From positions 4,894,001 through 4,958,000 of the forward strand of contig NZ_CP139781.1 of NCBI RefSeq assembly GCF_019679435.2: DNA of 64,000 nucleotides, given 5' to 3'. The notes beneath the pieces are model-generated. The model saw only the letters and a list, made by a program, of their open reading frames with translations. It did no database searches and was not told the DNA's origin. Position 1 is the first letter of the stretch. The number at the start of each line of letters is the position of its first letter. Positions 15,323 through 50,934 of this stretch are shown piece by piece. Both the position numbers and the translations under genes were made by a program. This stretch comes from Actomonas aquatica. GTDB lineage: Bacteria > Verrucomicrobiota > Verrucomicrobiia > Opitutales > Opitutaceae.

Positions 15323-15498
15323 CGCGGACAGACGGCTTACTAGCGGGCATGGTATAGAACGCGTCAAGTCACCGGAGGCGGGAATTTGCGATGTTCGCCC
15401 ATCGGCGGCGAACGCTGCGTGGACGAACCGGTTTTGAAATTTCAAATCGGGTGCACTGGAGCGTTGCGGCGCGAGCGTTAAGGGGCAGCGATGGGGCC

Positions 15499-17571
15499 AT
15501 GAATACGTTATCCCGGTGGCGCCGTTTGGCGTCGGTTTGTTTGGTCTCTTTGGGGGCCACGGTGGCTTCGGCCGATGATGGCATGTGGTTGCTCAACGCG
15601 CCGCCGACGGCGCAGCTGCAGGAACGCTACGGCTTCACGCCCACGGCGGACTGGCTGGAGCACCTGCAGAAATCCTCGGTGCGTTTTAACAACGGCGGTT
15701 CCGGCTCCTTCGTGTCGGCCGACGGTCTGGTCATCACCAACCACCACGTGGCGTCGGATGTCCTGCACAAGTTGAGCTCCGCGGATCACGACCTGTTGGA
15801 GGACGGTTTCATCGCCCGCACCCGTGACGCCGAGCTGCCCTGTCTCGATCTCGAGCTCAACGTGCTCATGTCGATCGAGGATGTGACCGACCGCGTGAAC
15901 GCCGCCGTGGGCGCCGACCTCGATCCCGCCGCCGCCAGTGCCGCGCGTCGTGCCGTGCTCGCGGAGATCGAACAGGAGTCGCTGGCCGAGACGGGGCTAC
16001 GCAGTGACGTCGAGTCGCTGTATCAGGGAGCTCAATACCACCTCTATCGATACAAGCGCTACACCGACGTGCGCCTGGTCTTCGCGCCAGAGAGTGCGGC
16101 GGGCGCATTTGGCGGTGACCCGGACAACTTTGGTTACCCGCGCTACTGCCTCGATGTGACCTTCTTTCGGGTTTACGAGAACGATCAGCCGGCGGCGATC
16201 GAGCATCACCTGACCTGGAACAGTGCCGGCACGCAGGAAGGCGACCTGGTGTTTGTGACCGGCCACCCCGGCTCGACCGATCGTCTCATCACGATGGCGG
16301 AGATGGATTTCTCCCGCGATGTGTCGGTGCCGCAGGTGCTGTGGTGGATCAAAAGCCGCGAGGTGCTGCTCAACGCCTACAGCAAAACCAGCGGCGAAGC
16401 GGCGCGCCAGGCCAAGGACGAGCTGCTTTACATGCAGAACGGTCGCAAAGTTTACGACGGTGAGATTTCCGGCCTCCTGGATCCGGCATTGAAGGCCATG
16501 AAGCAGGCCGAGGAAGAGCGTCTGCGCGCCTACTCGGCGGCGCATCCGGAGCTCGGCGCCGAGGGCGCTTGGGCCGAGATAGAAGCGGCCCAAGCCGAGC
16601 TCACGGATCTCTATGCCCGCCACCGCTTGGTGGAGCGTTGGAACTTCAACTCGAGCCTGTTTGAAAAGGCGCGCGAGCTCTACCGCGCTCCGACCGAGCG
16701 GGCCAAACCGAACGGCGAGCGTCTGCCGGATTACCGCGAGTCCTCGAAGGCGCAGTTTGAGTTGTCGCTGTTTTCCGAGGAGCCGATCTACCCGGAGTTT
16801 GAGTTGATCAAGGTGAAGCACCACCTCGAGTTCATGGCCATGGCGTTGGGCTCGAACGATCCCGCCGTGGTGATCGCCCTCGGCGGCAAAGCTCCGGCGG
16901 AGCGCGCAGCCGAACTCGTCATGGGCACGAAGGTCGGCGACGTTGCTTATCGTCGGGAGTTGTATGCATTGGATGCCGCCGCGATGGAGACGGTCGAGGA
17001 TCCGATGATCGCGCTCGTGCGCGCGCTCGATGCGAGCTCGCGGGCGATGCAGGAACAGGTGGATGCGATCGACGAAACCAAGTCGCAGGCCCACGCCCGC
17101 ATCGCCAAGGTGCGTTACGCGCTCGACGGCGACAGCGTCTCGCCGGACGCCACCTTCTCGCTGCGCCTCGGCGTCGGCACGGTCAAAGGCGTGCAGGAAG
17201 ACGGCGCGTGGATCGAACCCTACACCAAGATCGGCGGCACCTACGCGCGGGCGGATTTGCACGAGCAAGTGTTCCCCTTCGGCCTGCCGGAAAGCTGGCT
17301 CGAAGCGCGTGACGAGGTGGCGGCGGATACGCCGTATAACTTCATCAGCACGGTCTATTCGATCGGCGGCAACTCCGGCAGTCCGGTGCTGAATCGTGAC
17401 GGTGAATTCGTGGGCATCCTCTTCGACGGCAACATCCACTCGCTGGTCTGGGCTTACGCCTACACCGACACGCTGGCGCGCTCGGTGAACGTCGATGTGC
17501 GTGGCATCCTGGAGGCCTTGGATTCGATCTACGACGCTCAGGAACTGCTCGCGGAAATCAACGCGAAGTAA
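15499..17571 (+). CDS. S46 family dipeptidyl-peptidase (DPP7/DPP11-like)
   Basis: 690 residues from the ATG at 15499, with a signal peptide ending near ASA-DDGMW. The mature start DDGMWLLN is typical for family S46. A chymotrypsin-like His lies in VITNHHVASD (residues 82-83) and the nucleophile is Ser626 in IGGNSGSPVLN. The segment GILFDGN has Gly at the position that is Arg in acidic-specific DPP11, which points to DPP7-like specificity for hydrophobic or aliphatic P1 residues. These periplasmic enzymes remove dipeptides from peptides and fit growth on protein. It is divergent from the small membrane protein gene. Confidence 0.92.
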   Translation: MNTLSRWRRLASVCLVSLGATVASADDGMWLLNAPPTAQLQERYGFTPTADWLEHLQKSSVRFNNGGSGSFVSADGLVITNHHVASDVLHKLSSADHDLLEDGFIARTRDAELPCLDLELNVLMSIEDVTDRVNAAVGADLDPAAASAARRAVLAEIEQESLAETGLRSDVESLYQGAQYHLYRYKRYTDVRLVFAPESAAGAFGGDPDNFGYPRYCLDVTFFRVYENDQPAAIEHHLTWNSAGTQEGDLVFVTGHPGSTDRLITMAEMDFSRDVSVPQVLWWIKSREVLLNAYSKTSGEAARQAKDELLYMQNGRKVYDGEISGLLDPALKAMKQAEEERLRAYSAAHPELGAEGAWAEIEAAQAELTDLYARHRLVERWNFNSSLFEKARELYRAPTERAKPNGERLPDYRESSKAQFELSLFSEEPIYPEFELIKVKHHLEFMAMALGSNDPAVVIALGGKAPAERAAELVMGTKVGDVAYRRELYALDAAAMETVEDPMIALVRALDASSRAMQEQVDAIDETKSQAHARIAKVRYALDGDSVSPDATFSLRLGVGTVKGVQEDGAWIEPYTKIGGTYARADLHEQVFPFGLPESWLEARDEVAADTPYNFISTVYSIGGNSGSPVLNRDGEFVGILFDGNIHSLVWAYAYTDTLARSVNVDVRGILEALDSIYDAQELLAEINAK

Positions 17572-17588
17572 GGGGCGGGCGTTACTGC

Positions 17589-18131
17589 TGTAGCCGGGCT
17601 CGGTGAGCCCGGGCCGGGGTCAACGACCCCGGCTACAGCGGCCAAGATCTGTAGGGCCGTCGCTTGCGACGTGCCGCTGGCAGAGAGGCAGGAGGGAGCG
17701 GCCGAGACGGCCGCTGCTACACTCGGACAGGAGTTGTAGCCGCGGGCGTGTCGCCCGCCTTGCGGTGAGACGGTGGTTGGGGTGCCGAGGCTGGAAGCCT
17801 CGGCCACGGGTTGCTGGTTCGGTGGGTAGTGGGCGCGGCATCTTGCCGCGGCGGCAGTGGGGGAGGCGGCGTGCTGGATGGGGCGGAGAGGCAATGGGCG
17901 GCGTGCCGCAAGCGGCAACCCTACGATGGATGCGCTAAAGGGGGGGCCGTTGTTGTAGCCGGGCTCGGTTAGCCCGGACCGGGGTCAACGACCCCGGCTA
18001 AAGCGGGCCTGGCCTGCTCTGTAGGGCCGTCGCTTGCGACGTGCCGCCGGCGGAGAGGCAACGAGGAGCGGCCGAGACGGCCGCTGCTACACTCGGACGG
18101 ACGTTGTAGCCGCGGGCGTGTCGCCCGCGTT
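17589..18131. repeat. Hairpin-module array 1 (11 modules, order A-B-C-D-E-F-G-A-B-C-D)
   Basis: A 540-base array of short hairpins with 2-3-nt loops and variable linkers. Modules: A, double hairpin GGGCTC-GGT-GAGCCC plus GGGGTC-AAC-GACCCC (17589-17637, again 17954-18002); B, CGTCGC-TT-GCGACG (17650, 18020); C, GCGGCCG-AGA-CGGCCGC (17695, 18065); D, GCGGGCG-TGT-CGCCCGC (17735, 18104); E, GCCGAGGCT-GGA-AGCCTCGGC (17781); F, CGCGGCA-TCT-TGCCGCG (17829); G, TGCCGC-AA-GCGGCA (17899). A, B and D begin with TGTAG; A and C end with CTACA. The A-to-A period is 365 bases. It fills the gap between the S46 gene and the next gene, which holds nothing else recognisable. Confidence 0.9.
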
Positions 18132-18258
18132 TCAGGGGGACGGGGGCGATGGGGGCGTGGCTTTGGACGGGTTCGCGAATGCGCTGGTCGCAGGTTGGTG
18201 CCGCGATAGGCCGCAGATAGTCGGTTGACCAGTGGACACCGTGCCGGAAAATGCATGC

Positions 18259-18849
18259 ATGGGACCGGGGCTTGTCCTGATTTTCTGGGGTGTTATTTTT
18301 TCCGTGATCGCGGCGGTTTGGGTGGCGTTGGTGGTGGCGGCGATCTGGGGCTGGAAGCGCAATATTGTTTGGCTCAAATGGGGGGCGACGGTCGCCGCCG
18401 GCCTGTTTGCGGTGGCAGCGGTCGCAATCGTGGGATTTTTCGCGTTCGGCGTGTATTGGTTTTCCCGTCCGACGGAGGTGTTTCACGAAGCGTTCCGAGA
18501 ATACCCGTCGCCTGAGGTATCGGACTTGGAAAGCCGCCAGTTTTTTTTCGCCGACAACGGAGAGGTGCGGATGCGTTTCATTACGACTCGGCTGGAGTAT
18601 GAACGGCTTGTGCCGGGGGACCTTCGACCGAGTTCGGCTGAGGAGGTGCGTCGTCGAATGGGCATCCGATCAGAAGGCGATCCGGAGTGGTGGACGTTTC
18701 AGTTCAATCCGTCGTGGCAGTATGCCCTGCGGGAAACGGAACGGGATGCGAATCGAGCCGGTAAGCGGGGCTTTTTTTGGGAGCTTGAAGTGTTCGCATA
18801 CGATCCGAGTGCGAGCGTGGCATATTATTTCTTCAGCGGAATTGACTAG
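18259..18849 (+). CDS. Membrane protein of unknown function
   Basis: 196 residues from the ATG at 18259; a GTG at 18232 is an in-frame alternative. Two hydrophobic helices (about residues 3-27 and 40-62) are followed by a soluble domain of about 130 residues with several Trp and Phe residues and aromatic-rich ends (SVAYYFFSGID). No family was recognised. Local base composition is less GC-rich than its neighbours. It is flanked on both sides by hairpin arrays, so it is an island between repeats. Confidence 0.6.
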   Translation: MGPGLVLIFWGVIFSVIAAVWVALVVAAIWGWKRNIVWLKWGATVAAGLFAVAAVAIVGFFAFGVYWFSRPTEVFHEAFREYPSPEVSDLESRQFFFADNGEVRMRFITTRLEYERLVPGDLRPSSAEEVRRRMGIRSEGDPEWWTFQFNPSWQYALRETERDANRAGKRGFFWELEVFAYDPSASVAYYFFSGID

Positions 18850-19024
18850 CTGATCGGTTCGCTGCCGGCATCCGGCTTGGTGGTCTTCGCTCCGGGGCTC
18901 AACGTTGTTGATTTGCGATCCCCTCCAGGTGGCAGGTGTCGGCCAGGAAGGCGGGAAAAGGCGGTGCGGTTCAGGATGCAAAATGGGGTCTTGGCCTGGG
19001 TAGCAGAGGGAAGTTCACGGCCAG

Positions 19025-19075
19025 TTTTACTCCTCAAGCGGAGTAATGCTGAAATACTCCTGATGTGGAGTAGTG
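19025..19075. repeat. Pair of TACTCC hairpins
   Basis: Two tandem hairpins share the same stem with different loops: TACTCC-TCAAGC-GGAGTA at 19028-19045 and TACTCC-TGATGT-GGAGTA at 19055-19072. The loops are six bases, unlike the 2-3-base loops of the neighbouring array. They lie in otherwise featureless intergenic sequence (18850-19140) after the membrane protein gene. Confidence 0.75.
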
Positions 19076-19145
19076 AGGGTGACCGTCTTCCCGAGTTCGC
19101 CCTCCGAACGGGTCGCGCGCGCTGCGGTTGGGGCGGTGGTGGGGG

Positions 19146-19679
19146 GCCGAGGCTGGAAGCCTCGGCCACGGTCTTTCGGTGCGCGATCGGTTGTGGGCGC
19201 GGCATCTTGCCGCGGCGGCGTGCTGGATGGGGCGGAGAGGCAATGGACGGTGTGCCGCAAGCGGCAGCCCTACACTGGAGGCGTTTAAGGGCGGCCGTTG
19301 TTGTAGCCGGGCTCGGTGAGCCCGGACCGGGGTCAACGACCCCGGCTACAGCGGGCAAGATCTTTAGGGCCGTCGCTTGCGACGTGCCGCCGGCGGAGTG
19401 GCAAGGAGGAGCGGCCGAGACGGCCGCTGCTACACTCGGACAGGAGTTGTAGCCGCGGGCGTGTCGCCCGCGTTGCGGTGGGACGGTGGTGGGGTGCCGA
19501 GGCTGGAAGCCTCGGCCACGGTGTTGCCGGTGCGGTCGGTTGTGGGCGCGGCATCTTGCCGCGGCGGGGTTGAGGGGGGGCGTGCCGCAAGCGTCAGCCC
19601 TACGATGGATGCGCTAAAGGGGCCCGTTGTTGTAGCCGGGCTCGGTGAGCCCGGGCCGGGGTCGACGACCCCGGCTACA
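19146..19679. repeat. Hairpin-module array 2 (11 modules, order E-F-G-A-B-C-D-E-F-G-A)
   Basis: Uses the same module families as array 1: E (19146, 19493), F (19193, 19541), G (19249, 19579), A (19302-19350, 19631-19679), B (19363), C (19408) and D (19447). The order is the same cycle as in array 1 but entered at E. Linkers between modules are also largely shared (for example GCTGGATGGGGCGGAGAGGC between F and G). The last G copy has a mismatch in its right arm. The array sits between the convergent ends of the membrane-protein gene and the tricorn-like gene. Confidence 0.9.
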
Positions 19680-19723
19680 GTTCCGAGGTGAGTGGCGATG
19701 CGATTTGCGATGTCATCGATCAT

Positions 19724-19754
19724 AAAAAAGGCGCCGCGGGTAGCGGCGCCTTTT
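19724..19754 (-). terminator. Strong intrinsic terminator of the tricorn-like gene
   Basis: Perfect stem AAAAGGCGCCGC (19726-19737) and GCGGCGCCTTTT (19743-19754) with a five-base loop. On the minus strand the stem is followed by TTTTTT, so it terminates the gene ending at 19774. The flanking A and T runs allow it to work in both directions. Confidence 0.88.
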
Positions 19755-19773
19755 GCGTAACGGGAGCGTGGGA

Positions 19774-22700
19774 TCAGAGGCTCTTGTCCGGGTGAGGAGG
19801 TGGCGGGGGCAGGCCGGTTTCGACTTGTTCGAGTTCGGCGAGCACCTCTTCGATGCCGCGGTCGAGCTGCTGGTCTTCGCCGTGGAATTCCTTCCACGGG
19901 TCGTTGTCCACCACGATGTCGGGATCGACGCCGTGACCTTCGATGACCCACTTGGAACCGTCCAAGGCATACGGGCCGCTTTCGGGTTTGTGGAGCGAGC
20001 CGCCGTCGATGAACGGCAGGGAACCCCAGATGCCGACGACGCCGCCCCAAGAGCGTTTGCCAATGAGTTTGCCGAGGCCGGCGGCGCGGAAGCGGTGGTT
20101 CACAATGTCACCGTCGGAGGCGGAGAACTCGTCCATGAGCATGACCTTGGGGCCGTAGATGGCGCCTCCTGGATCGGCTCGCGGGGTGCCGCCGCGGCGC
20201 AGTTCGATCATGGCGATTTCGCGGCTGAGGCGTTCGATGATCATGGGCGAGACGTTGCCGCCGCCGTTACCGCGCACGTCGATGATGAGCGCGTCCTTGT
20301 TGAGCTGCGGGTAGAAGCGGCGCACGAAGGCGTTGAGACCGGGGGGGCCCATGTCGGGGATGTGCAGGTAACCGACGCGGCCGTCGGTGCGCTCGGTGAC
20401 GTAGTCGATGTTGTTCTCCACCCATTGCTCGTAGTAGAGGTCGGCCTCGTCGCCGATGGGGACGATGGTGACATCGCGGGCGCCTTCGGTGGTGGGCGTG
20501 CCGTTGACGGTGAGCTTCACCTGCGCGCCGACTTTGCCGATGAGGGCCTCGAAGAGGTTGTTCATCTCGGCGACGGGACGGCCGTCGATGGCGAGGATGT
20601 AGTCACCTTCGCTGACGTTGACGCCGAGCTCGGTGAGGGGGGAGCGGGTGTTGGAGTGCCAGTTGGCACCCGGCAGGATGTGATCGATGCGGTAGGCGCG
20701 GCTGGCTTCGTCGCGGGAAACCTGGGCACCGAGCAGGCCGGTCTGGATGCGCGGGGCGTTGTTGCGATCGCCGCCGCCGACGTAGGCGTGGCCGATGTGG
20801 AGCTCACCGATCATCTCACCGATGAGGTAGGTGAGGTCGTTGCGGGTGGCGACCGACGGCACGAGCGCGCCGTATTTGTCGTGCATGGCCTGCCAGTCGA
20901 CGCCGTGCATGTTGGCGTCGTAGAAGAAGTCGCGCATCTGGCGCCAGCTCTCGTCGAAGATCTGGGCCCACTCGGCGCGGGGATCGACGACCATCTTTAG
21001 GCCGGAGAGGCTGATCTTGTTCTCGGGCTTGAGCTCGATCTTGCCCTTGGCGGGGAGGTCGATGAGCGAGAAGGAACCGTGGCCGGCGACGACCAACATC
21101 TTCTTGTGGTCGGCCGTGATCTCGAAGCCGTTGTAGGCGCCGAGCACAGTCTCTTCGCGGTCCTCGAGGCTGTAGCGCACGATGACGGGCTGACGGCCGC
21201 TGTCGCCGCCGAAACCTTCACCGCCGTGGCCGCCGGTGACGGCACTGCCGGGCTCGCGGTAGTAGTAGACGTTGCCGTCGACGAGGTAGAGGCTGCGGTA
21301 GTTGGAGGGCTCGATGGGGAGCGCGATGACCCGGTCGTAGAGACCGTCGGTGTCGACCTTGACGGTGATGGCGGGCTCGGCGTCTTCGTCGTCGGCCTTC
21401 TTCTCGTCGTCGGATTTTTCGTCAGCGTCGGACTTGGCGTCGTCGGCCGGTTTGTCTTCGGCGATCTTCACCTCGTCGCTGCGCGGGGCGAAGGGCGACT
21501 CGGTGTCCTTGGCGAGGGCGACCATGTAAACGCGCTCCATGTCCATGTAGGCGTAGTTCCACTCGACGTCGGAGTAGATGGGATTGAAGTCGCGGGCGGA
21601 GGCAAAGAGCAGCCATTTGCCGTCGTCGGAGAAGGCGGGGCTGTTGGCGTTGAACCATTCGTCGGTTGCGGCGATCTCGGTGCCGTCGGTGACGTTGGTG
21701 AGCATGACGCGGGTGGAGCCGGCGGCGACGTTGCGCACCCAGGCGACCCAGTTGGAGTCGGGCGCCCACGTGTAGCTGTAGATGGGCGACTCGGGGTTGG
21801 TGGCGAGGTCGGTGACGGTCTTGGACTCGACGTCGACCATGCGCAGGCGTTGGTCGCGGTCGGCCCAGAGGAGCTTCTTGGAGTCGGGTGACCAATCGAT
21901 GCCGAAGGCGTAGGACGTGGCGTCGTCGGTCAGCTGGGTGGCCTCGCCGCTGCCGTCCTGGGCGCGCAGGTAGAGTTCGAACTCGCCGGTGGCGTCGGAC
22001 AGGTAAGCGACCCACTTGCCGTCGGGCGACCAGGTGGCGGAACGCTCATGGACGCCGGGGGTGTTGGAGAGGTTGCGGGTCGGACCGTGTTGGGCGGGGA
22101 CGGTGAAGACCTCGCCGCGGGCGACGACGGTGACGCGGGCGCCGTCGGGGGACGGGCTCACGCTCTCGACGTAGTTCTCGACCGAGCGGTAGGACGGACG
22201 GGTGTCGGTGCGGTCGTCGATGACGGTGATCGGCACGACGGCGGCGGTCTGGGTGGCGAGATCGAAGCGCCAGATCTGGCCGGCGTTTTCGAAGACGACG
22301 GCGTCGGGTCCGAGGGAGGGGAACTTCACGTCGAAGTCGGTGAAGTGGGTGAGCTGCTTGATCTCCTTGGTGGTGAGGTCGACCGAGAAGAGGTTGGCGC
22401 GCGGGGTGCGTTCGGAGACGAAGTAGACGTGGTTGTCGGAGGCCCACATCGGGAAGATGTCCTGGGCGGGATCGTTGGTGAGGTTCTCGAGCTCGCCGCT
22501 TTTGAGGTCGAGGATCCAGACGTCGTCGGCCATGCCGCCGCGGTAGTGTTTCCAGGTGCGGAATTCGCGGAAGATGCGGTTGTAGGCGATCTTGGAATCG
22601 TCGGGCGAGAAGGTGAGGAAACCGCCGCGGGGCACGGGCAGGCGTTCCGGCACGTCGCCGTCGAGGCCGACGGTGTAGAGTTGGCCGTTGAAGGAGTTGT

Positions 22701-23157
22701 ATTCGATGGCGCGGGAGCGGAAGGCGATCTCGGGCGCGGTGTTGCGCCAGGCCATGACGATGTTGTTGGGGCCCATGCGATCGGCGAGGTCGTCGCGGCC
22801 GAGGGTGGCGCTGGTGGTGAGGCGCTGGGGTTCACCGCCGGTGGCCGGCATCACGTAGACCTCGGTGTTGCCATCGTATTGGCCGGTGAAGGCGAGCTGG
22901 GCGCCATCGGCCGAGAAGCGCGGGAAGACCGCGTAGCCGGGGGTGTTGGTGAGGCGACGGGCGGTGCCGCCGGCGACGTCGACCGTGTAGAGCTGGCCGG
23001 CGTAGGAGAAAACGATCTGCTCACCGTTGGTGGTGGGGAAGCGCAGCAGACGCGTGGAGGAGGAGGACGACTCTCCGGCCGCGAAGACCGAAGCCGACAG
23101 AAGAATGGCGAGGAGCGACGTTAGGTAATAACGGCTCCGCCCAAGTAGTGTGTGCAT
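19774..23157 (-). CDS. Tricorn-like periplasmic S41 protease
   Basis: 1127 residues from the ATG at 23157; a TTG at 23169 is less likely. A signal peptide (LLAILLSASVFAAG) is followed by beta-propeller repeats of the PD40 type (for example LTNTPGYAVFPRFSADG, SATWSPDGKWVAYLSD), a low-complexity Asp/Glu/Lys linker (about residues 570-600), a C1-type helical region, a PDZ domain with GDYILAIDGRPV and a C-terminal S41 catalytic domain. The putative nucleophile is Ser1014 in FSASDGD. Tricorn homologues degrade oligopeptides; the signal peptide places this one in the periplasm. A strong terminator follows. Confidence 0.92.
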   Translation of the reverse strand: MHTLLGRSRYYLTSLLAILLSASVFAAGESSSSSTRLLRFPTTNGEQIVFSYAGQLYTVDVAGGTARRLTNTPGYAVFPRFSADGAQLAFTGQYDGNTEVYVMPATGGEPQRLTTSATLGRDDLADRMGPNNIVMAWRNTAPEIAFRSRAIEYNSFNGQLYTVGLDGDVPERLPVPRGGFLTFSPDDSKIAYNRIFREFRTWKHYRGGMADDVWILDLKSGELENLTNDPAQDIFPMWASDNHVYFVSERTPRANLFSVDLTTKEIKQLTHFTDFDVKFPSLGPDAVVFENAGQIWRFDLATQTAAVVPITVIDDRTDTRPSYRSVENYVESVSPSPDGARVTVVARGEVFTVPAQHGPTRNLSNTPGVHERSATWSPDGKWVAYLSDATGEFELYLRAQDGSGEATQLTDDATSYAFGIDWSPDSKKLLWADRDQRLRMVDVESKTVTDLATNPESPIYSYTWAPDSNWVAWVRNVAAGSTRVMLTNVTDGTEIAATDEWFNANSPAFSDDGKWLLFASARDFNPIYSDVEWNYAYMDMERVYMVALAKDTESPFAPRSDEVKIAEDKPADDAKSDADEKSDDEKKADDEDAEPAITVKVDTDGLYDRVIALPIEPSNYRSLYLVDGNVYYYREPGSAVTGGHGGEGFGGDSGRQPVIVRYSLEDREETVLGAYNGFEITADHKKMLVVAGHGSFSLIDLPAKGKIELKPENKISLSGLKMVVDPRAEWAQIFDESWRQMRDFFYDANMHGVDWQAMHDKYGALVPSVATRNDLTYLIGEMIGELHIGHAYVGGGDRNNAPRIQTGLLGAQVSRDEASRAYRIDHILPGANWHSNTRSPLTELGVNVSEGDYILAIDGRPVAEMNNLFEALIGKVGAQVKLTVNGTPTTEGARDVTIVPIGDEADLYYEQWVENNIDYVTERTDGRVGYLHIPDMGPPGLNAFVRRFYPQLNKDALIIDVRGNGGGNVSPMIIERLSREIAMIELRRGGTPRADPGGAIYGPKVMLMDEFSASDGDIVNHRFRAAGLGKLIGKRSWGGVVGIWGSLPFIDGGSLHKPESGPYALDGSKWVIEGHGVDPDIVVDNDPWKEFHGEDQQLDRGIEEVLAELEQVETGLPPPPPHPDKSL

Positions 23158-23411
23158 TTTGCCACGCAAAGCGGTCGGGCCGTGGCTGACAAATGAGAAT
23201 CCGCGGGCGGTCGCATTTCGGTGGTCATTGCCAAAGACCGGGCGGTGCAGGTGCCGCCAGAGGCAAGTCTGAGGCGATAAATTGGGGGCATGGGCCTATG
23301 AGAGAGCCTGCACACCGATCAGTATGATAAACAAAATGTGAAATTGCCCGAGGGTCGCAGGAAAATGGCGCGGTGGGATCAGGGACTGCGCTTGTTTGGT
23401 CGATCTATAGA

Positions 23412-29134: not shown

Positions 29135-29510
29135 GCCGACGGGGACGTCGGCGGTGGCGGGCGGGCGGCGGAGAGTCACGGGGAGCGGCCGAGACGGCCG
29201 CTGCTACATTCGGAATTGTAGCCGCGGGCGTGTCGCCTGCGTTTCGTTGGCCCGGTAGAGCGGTGCCGAGGCTGGAAGCCTCGGCCACGGTATCAGGCGT
29301 GGGCGCGGCATCTTGCCGCGGTCGGGGGAGTGCTGGGGCCGACGGGGGCGTCGGCGGAGAGGCACGGGGAGCGGCCGAGACGGCCGCTGCTACATTCGGG
29401 GTTGTAGCCGCGGGCGTGTCGCCCGCGTGTCGTTGGTCCGGTAGGGCGGTGCCGAGGCTGGAAGCCTCGGCCACGGTATCGGGGGTGGGCGCGGCATCTT
29501 GCCGCGGCGT
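29135..29510. repeat. Hairpin-module array 3 (order H-C-D-E-F repeated twice)
   Basis: Two successive composite units, period 203 bases. Module H is GCCGACG-GGGA-CGTCGGC (29135-29152) and GCCGACG-GGGG-CGTCGGC (29338-29355). Modules C (29181, 29368), D (29217, 29401), E (29260, 29448) and F (29299, 29486) match the families in arrays 1 and 2. One D copy has a stem mismatch (CGCCTGC). The array occupies the whole gap between the convergent DUF3160 and CusF-type genes. Confidence 0.9.
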
Positions 29511-50789: not shown

Positions 50790-50910
50790 GGAGCGGCCGA
50801 CACGGCCGCTGCTACATCGGATGGGTTGCCCGCGTTTGGGTTGCGGGGACGCAACCGAGGTCACCGACCTCGGCTACAGCGCGGTGCATTGTTGTAGCCG
50901 GGGGCGTCGA
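50790..50910. repeat. Hairpin-module array 4 (short, mixed)
   Basis: Contains one C module (stem GCGGCCG-ACA-CGGCCGC, ending CTACA, 50790-50816), then two adjacent hairpins GTTGCG-GGGA-CGCAAC and CCGAGGTC-ACC-GACCTCGG ending in CTACA, then TGTAGCC followed by CCGGGG-GCGTCGA-CCCCGG. It lies between the convergent VOC and transglutaminase genes. Confidence 0.8.
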
Positions 50911-50934
50911 CCCCGGACTTGCGTGGGGGCGGAC

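Follow-up and report, generated by a model that had tools for sequence, protein, structure and literature searches.

A hairpin array of Actomonas aquatica as a probable mosaic of four GTAG/GTGG-tagged REP families linked to RAYT transposases

In 2013, Di Nocera et al. (PMC3733652) reported the GTAG REP families GTAG-17, GTAG-19, and GTAG-20 from the verrucomicrobium Opitutus terrae. The accessible part of that paper also describes hybrid dimers in S. maltophilia and mosaic clusters in Neisseria, and it places the REPs of other genomes mostly between unidirectional and convergent ORFs. The spreading of REPs by RAYTs is still called poorly understood in the portion of another study available to us (PMC8266576). 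For the insertion sequences IS608 and ISDra2, a preference for the lagging-strand template is reported in the available text of PMC6006769. In Pseudomonas fluorescens SBW25, every tandem GI-GIII array near 2 Mbp was forward and every one near 4 Mbp was reverse (PMC3116915, available sections), and this remark is the nearest precedent for an orientation of REPs by replication arm that those sections and the other sources provided. The literature searched, which covered few subscription papers, yielded no systematic tally of REP orientations on the two replication arms.

The array analyzed here lies at 17589-19679 (2,091 bases) of the window, a 64,000-nucleotide stretch of the A. aquatica chromosome. 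It contains 20 perfect hairpins with a stem of at least 7 bp and a loop of 2 to 5 nt, against a mean of 0.66 and a maximum of 4 in 200 dinucleotide-preserving shuffles; at a stem of at least 6 bp, 25 hairpins were listed. The array is real and strongly nonrandom. Eight types of stem recur in constant order, namely, 1a (CCGGGCTC), 1b (CCGGGGTC), 2a (CGTCGC), 2b (GCGGCCG), 3 (GCGGGCG), 4 (CGAGGCT), 5 (GCGGCA), and 6 (TGCCGC). Stems are 6 to 10 bp long across the array. Six of the eight types have loops of 3 nt and two have loops of 2 nt; a single degenerate copy was scored with a 5-nt loop. One foot is TGTAG (CTAC on the other strand) in types 1a, 1b, 2a, 2b, 3, and 6, and types 4 and 5 carry GTGG/CCAC instead. 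The modules thus have the build of GTAG REPs, a short palindrome with GTAG or a variant of it on one foot.

The direction of the feet sorts the eight hairpins into pairs that make up four families, F1 (1a with 1b), F2a/F6, F2b/F3, and F4/F5. The feet lie outside in F1 and F2a/F6 and inside in F2b/F3 and, as found in the window, in F4/F5. Such inverted pairs, sometimes in tandem, are a feature of REPs and BIMEs. The pairs also occur alone: F1 at loci L043 and L143, F2a-F6 at L153, L160, and L161, F2b-F3 at L173, L175, and L020, and F5-F4, with the feet outside, at L165. We consider it very likely that the array is a mosaic of four GTAG/GTGG-tagged REP families, in dimers of the BIME or REPIN type, that are moved by their own RAYTs. 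The initial annotation of this DNA had described micro-hairpins arranged in modules and had held that they were not one simple REP family, and the recurring stem types and the four families uphold both statements; the TGTAG/CTACA borders that it described were found in all types except 4 and 5, whose GTGG/CCAC feet it had not noticed.

The families are arranged in a composite unit of about 330 to 370 bp, present in about four copies that start at 17586, 17956, 19299, and 19629. Unit 1 opens with the F1 head-to-head dimer (1a and 1b; 17589-17637, plus strand), bounded by TGTAG...CTACA, which in single-stranded form folds as a single long hairpin or as two adjacent ones. REP 2a follows, with its TGTAGGGC foot on the left (17650-17676, plus strand), and then the F2b/F3 tail-to-tail dimer with its conserved outer tail GAGAGGCA... 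(17679-17767, plus strand; positions 94 to 182 of the composite used as a query below), in which hairpin 17697-17715 is followed by CTACA and hairpin 17742-17758 is preceded by TGTAG. The F4/F5 dimer (17779-17860, plus strand; composite query about 194 to 275) has hairpins at 17784-17804, followed by CCAC, and at 17834-17850, preceded by GTGG. REP 6, the partner of 2a, closes the unit on the minus strand (17904-17924), with its CCCTAC foot on the right. In single-stranded folding, the unit 1 F1 dimer reached -23 kcal/mol (z, -6.0), and three more stretches tested in the same way folded better than their shuffles (z, -3.4 to -5.4).

The other units are on the plus strand. Unit 2 is interrupted by about 1 kb with an ORF of 205 aa (18232-18849, plus strand), which is membrane-like and had no match in a Pfam comparison; its left part (17954-18129) holds the F1 dimer with one degenerate foot, 2a, and F2b/F3, and its right part (19145-19273) holds F4/F5 and 6. 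Unit 3 (19299-19628) consists of F1, 2a with the foot TTAG, F2b/F3, F4/F5, and a degenerate 6, and unit 4 (19631-19679), the last, is the 1a-1b dimer alone. Two more groups were found in the window, both on the plus strand: F2b, F3, and F4/F5 elements, twice, at 29135-29506, and an F2b element with F1-type hairpins at 50793-50913.

The families are dispersed through the genome. Pattern searches gave 57 matches for F1 (at 54 places), 33 for F2a/F6, 119 for F2b, and 51 for F4, and each reversed pattern gave 0. F1 stems vary within this genome around the same GGT loop (CCGGGCTC, CCGGCCTC, and CCGGGGTC). In 60 stretches of the genome, 7 of them picked at REP sites, 58 REP clusters were found, of which 10 were of mixed families and 37 were single hairpins. 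The sequence GAGAGGCA lay within 60 bp of REPs in 13 of its 29 copies in the sample and the window, where such neighborhoods make up 4,210 of 464,000 bases; we take this sequence to be the outer tail of F2b/F3, the alternative being a target site beside F2b. A tandem array near 1.8245 Mb intersperses another palindrome, TGCCGGCTTCAGCCGGCA, with F2b/F3 elements (L295, L297, and L017). At 17589-19679, several RAYT/REP systems are stacked at a single intergenic place, and the array is otherwise ordinary for a REP-rich genome.

A profile search of the genome with PF01797 identified nine Y1 transposase genes, and the RAYT of a relative (L074), used as a query, gave six matches, from which two new places, L139 and L140, were taken up. 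F2b and F3 hairpins lie on either side of the gene for RAYT L007, and F4 and F5 hairpins surround RAYT L008; F2b/F3 and F4/F5 are thereby linked to cognate RAYTs in this genome. No RAYT surrounded by F1 or F2a/F6 was found in this genome by the PF01797 and L074 searches or in the flanks of L139 and L140. Against the NCBIfam model for REP-associated tyrosine transposases (REP_Tyr_transpos, NF047646; curated cut-off, 80 bits), L007 scored 108.2 and L074 scored 99.9, and scores below the cut-off were obtained for L009 (79.5), L003 (68.2), and L008 (47.4). The best solved relative of the L007 protein by sequence was TnpArep 4er8 (E, 1.3e-8). Residues H77 and H79 (HUH) and Y137, in L007 numbering, were invariant in five aligned RAYTs and align with 4er8.

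The remaining transposase loci differ in their surroundings. L009 (near 4.351 Mb), L139 (near 5.237 Mb), and L140 (near 3.198 Mb) lie amid other REP-type repeats, each with its own; the L009 type had 30 pattern matches (1 for the reversed control), and the L139 type had 27. The strongest Y1 transposase match, L001 at 6.053 Mb (107.9 bits), is flanked by one short hairpin per side, with stems TCGTCGC and GCGTCGC, and resembles an IS200-type element, not a REP array. The L003, L005, and L006 loci had unrelated hairpins only, and no perfect hairpin with a stem of at least 7 bp was present at L002 and L004.

RAYTs of the two types were then compared across genomes. L007-type RAYTs had matches in 100, and L008-type RAYTs in 79, of the 236 genomes taken from the class. 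Of the 80 named records kept for the RAYT of this genome, 63 had titles that we read as Verrucomicrobia or Kiritimatiellae, and the rest belonged to other phyla or carried no phylum. The loci examined were 83 distinct ones, the best scoring that the searches returned rather than every match, from which three duplicates and the loci of this genome had been removed beforehand; 13 were lost to contig ends, leaving 70 uncut. A footed hairpin was defined as a perfect hairpin with a GT[AG]G foot and a stem of at least 7 bp within 400 bp of the RAYT. Footed hairpins occurred on both sides of the RAYT at 31 of the 70 loci, on one side at 12, and on neither at 27, compared with 0, 7, and 63, respectively, for the distal ends of the same loci. 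The 27 loci lacking a nearby footed hairpin count against the mosaic reading that we prefer, as do the scores of L008 and L009 below the curated cut-off and the failure of the searches of this genome to find a RAYT amid F1 or F2a/F6.

Stems varied between these genomes, the foot was constant, and the loop was often constant, which bears out the covariation that had been put forward as a check from the window alone and is what RAYT/REP pairs predict. Read from the foot, the loops in the array are TGT (F3), TCC (F4), and TCT (F5). Across genomes, the loop partly went with the RAYT group: among loci having hairpins, it was TGT, TAT, or TGC at 10 of 19 in the L007 group and TCC or TCT at 11 of 16 in the L008 group. 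F1 stems flank RAYTs L064 and L074 in two genomes of the same family, and, as to a possible RAYT for F2a/F6, GTAGGGC-footed hairpins lie beside RAYTs of relatives (for example, L130, L132, and L135).

The hairpins of a dimer differ, so each copy has a readable direction and the genome can record insertion. The F2b strand switches near 0.35 to 0.63 Mb and near 3.65 to 3.83 Mb, and the sign of the GC skew switches near 0.58 and 3.79 Mb. The skew was computed over 20-kb pieces in 67 stretches (20 evenly placed, 33 set more densely near the switches, 13 located at REP or RAYT sites, plus the window). With same-strand matches within 3 kb counted once as a cluster, 65 of 70 F2b clusters agreed with the GC-skew arm (P = 5e-14; orientation taken from 100 listed of the 119 matches), as did 31 of 36 F4 clusters (P = 2e-5). 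These arcs were chosen from the skew after 40 more stretches had been added, at a time when the REP strands were already known; the first arcs, from 20 stretches, had switches near 0.86 and 3.9 to 4.07 Mb and gave 62 of 70 for F2b and 30 of 36 for F4. Local stretches of opposite skew at 0.71 to 0.78, 2.77, and 3.96 to 4.03 Mb were left inside their arcs. F2b thus shows a very strong orientation by arm, and F4 shows a clear one.

Other families gave mixed results, and those with no significant or only a weak trend count against the preferred reading. The L139 family followed the arm in 19 of 22 clusters (P = 0.002), and the L009 family did so in 14 of 20, which was not significant (P = 0.16). 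F1 showed no orientation when all stems were pooled (25 of 43 clusters; P = 0.35); its commonest stem, GGGCTC-like, agreed in 18 of 22 clusters (P = 0.002), CCGGCCTC showed no trend (4 of 10), and CCGGGGTC agreed in 3 of 11. This recount, which omits six rows at three places matched on both strands, replaces an earlier subset of 18 of the 57 F1 matches, in which 12 of 12 clusters agreed and the selection favored the reading. In relative G089, F1a pointed the same way weakly (20 of 28 matches, P = 0.046; 16 of 24 clusters, P = 0.10), as judged from 28 exact matches of 78; with the sign of the nearest stretch instead, 21 of 28 agreed (P = 0.02). Because families share some loci, the orientation tests are not fully independent. 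Near 2.770 Mb (L297), three F2b exceptions in the minus arc lie where the local GC skew likewise has the opposite sign (+0.074), as expected from a local inversion. At about 3.96 to 4.03 Mb, the skew is reversed in two neighboring 20-kb stretches, as with a local inversion or acquired DNA.

By an established rule, the G-rich strand is the leading strand; should this rule apply here, the lagging-strand template would be the strand on which the dimer reads hairpin-CTACA...TGTAG-hairpin. The arm-dependent orientation is compatible with insertion into the lagging strand by RAYTs. We tentatively favor the view that RAYTs insert REP dimers in one constant orientation with respect to the fork, such that the genome would be a record of replication-coupled insertion. 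If this is true, the genome offers evidence from nature, at genome scale, that RAYTs act on the single-stranded lagging-strand template, like IS608. Heterotypic dimers have a direction and homotypic dimers do not, and the lagging-strand question thus becomes a count over complete genomes. That the bias reflects gene direction or base composition rather than replication-coupled insertion seems unlikely to us. Orientation and gene strand are partly confounded in codirectional gaps, which speaks for gene direction, but 16 of the 17 F2b clusters between convergent genes follow the arc, and gene strand therefore does not explain the F2b orientation; moreover, coding strand was only loosely tied to skew in the sampled stretches. 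As to base composition, an element of 85 bp weighs little in a 20-kb skew piece.

The placement of the repeats relative to genes raises a different explanation, in which hairpins are kept for a role in RNA, as two-way terminators or stabilizers of mRNA ends between convergent genes, with mobility secondary or past. The window array is flanked by a peptidase S46 gene (15391-17571, plus strand) and a tricorn-type peptidase gene (19774-23169, minus strand). Of 30 F2b clusters with gene context, 17 lay in convergent gaps, 12 in codirectional gaps, 1 in a divergent gap, and none within a called gene; genes were called with a codon-usage script, and the intergenic test covers F2b alone. Convergent gaps were 30 of 154 gaps of at least 100 bp, giving an enrichment of F2b at P = 7e-6 by count and 0.002 by bases. 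This placement accords with a role at RNA ends, which is possible, yet avoidance of genes and promoters alone could yield the same pattern, and a role in RNA leaves unexplained the linkage to RAYTs, the family-specific feet, and the orientation by arm within convergent gaps. As an account of the array in place of mobility, we judge it improbable.

The composite could also be one mobile element with several hairpins, the new modular element of the initial annotation. Its layout recurs about four times in the window, and partial composites (F2b-F3-F4, some with F5) occur together near 5.03 Mb and at 29.2 to 29.5 kb of the window. As a query, the 371-bp composite gave at least 65 genome matches, a lower bound since 40 of 254 first-look candidates were scored. 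However, these matches were mostly single modules and often stopped at module borders (query about 1 to 55, 94 to 182, and 194 to 275), and the only full-length matches among those listed were two units, both in the window. Because the modules end at their own borders and the full unit is confined to the window, the composite is a local pile-up, and it is the modules that are dispersed. Module pairs also occur alone, and different families surround different RAYTs. The composite as a single mobile unit is thus very improbable and was rejected, since the modules travel separately. A CRISPR or other fixed-repeat array, which the repeated, spaced, and partly palindromic units might call to mind, can be dismissed on anatomy, as it had been in the initial annotation, because there is no fixed repeat with unique spacers and the units differ from one another and are footed hairpins. 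Comparison of 17500-19800 with Rfam at the gathering score gave 0 matches.

For the mosaic of REP families, the anatomy of the units suggests how the pile-up may have arisen. In the window, F2b-F3 and F4-F5 sit between 2a and 6, and an uninterrupted 2a-6 dimer found elsewhere has a right-hand spacer similar to that of the window; at L026:15530-15900, an F3-F2b dimer lies within an F1-type dimer, an arrangement that occurs twice in tandem. The insertion of one dimer into another would be the simplest reading of this nested layout. No empty insertion site was seen, and it is the layout of the elements that points to nesting and to tandem duplication. In the mechanism that we propose, the REPs of each family would be non-autonomous elements; the RAYT of that family, a HUH/Y1 transposase presumed to read the GTAG foot and the hairpin, would cut and join them in single-stranded form. 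RAYTs would have done the inserting, probably into the lagging-strand template at the fork. F2b/F3 and F4/F5 would have landed inside the F2a-F6 dimer beside the F1 dimer, and the 371-bp unit may then have multiplied by tandem duplication at the single intergenic place.

The initial annotation knew of no named element with this build, a statement that no longer stands. The modules are GTAG/GTGG-tagged REP dimers, two of the families surround RAYTs here, and L007 passes the NCBIfam cut-off; the match to named REP/BIME elements is at the level of the class, published families having been compared by description alone. Nor are the modules rare outside the window, to which only the full composite is restricted. 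The array is a further case of GTAG REP/RAYT systems, a class already known.

Compared with those systems, the array most resembles the GTAG REPs of O. terrae as they appear in the accessible part of PMC3733652, where a genome likewise holds several families, HH and TT dimers occur (some 1 to 2 bp apart in O. terrae), and REPtrons are family specific. The foot of O. terrae GTAG-20 is mostly GTGG, as in F4/F5 here; the O. terrae families and F1 to F6 are likened by text description. Unlike in that account, whose accessible part describes no such arrangement, four families are stacked here in a repeated unit. As in E. coli BIMEs, at least as the available portions of PMC6006769 and PMC8266576 present them, there are inverted REP pairs and tandem copies in intergenic positions and a RAYT amid REPs. 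E. coli, however, has one RAYT, whereas here there are four families and several RAYTs, with the families stacked, and the stems are perfect, without the bulge of E. coli REPs. The REPINs of P. fluorescens SBW25 are likewise REP doublets with RAYTs, according to the available sections of PMC3116915; the sequences are different, and the orientation remark there concerns tandem arrays, whereas the orientation here concerns single dimers chromosome-wide. With the IS200/IS605 elements IS608 and ISDra2, the array shares a HUH/Y1 transposase and subterminal hairpins, but its modules are gene-free, and its RAYTs scored below the IS200 equivalog cut-off (36.5 and 21, against 55).
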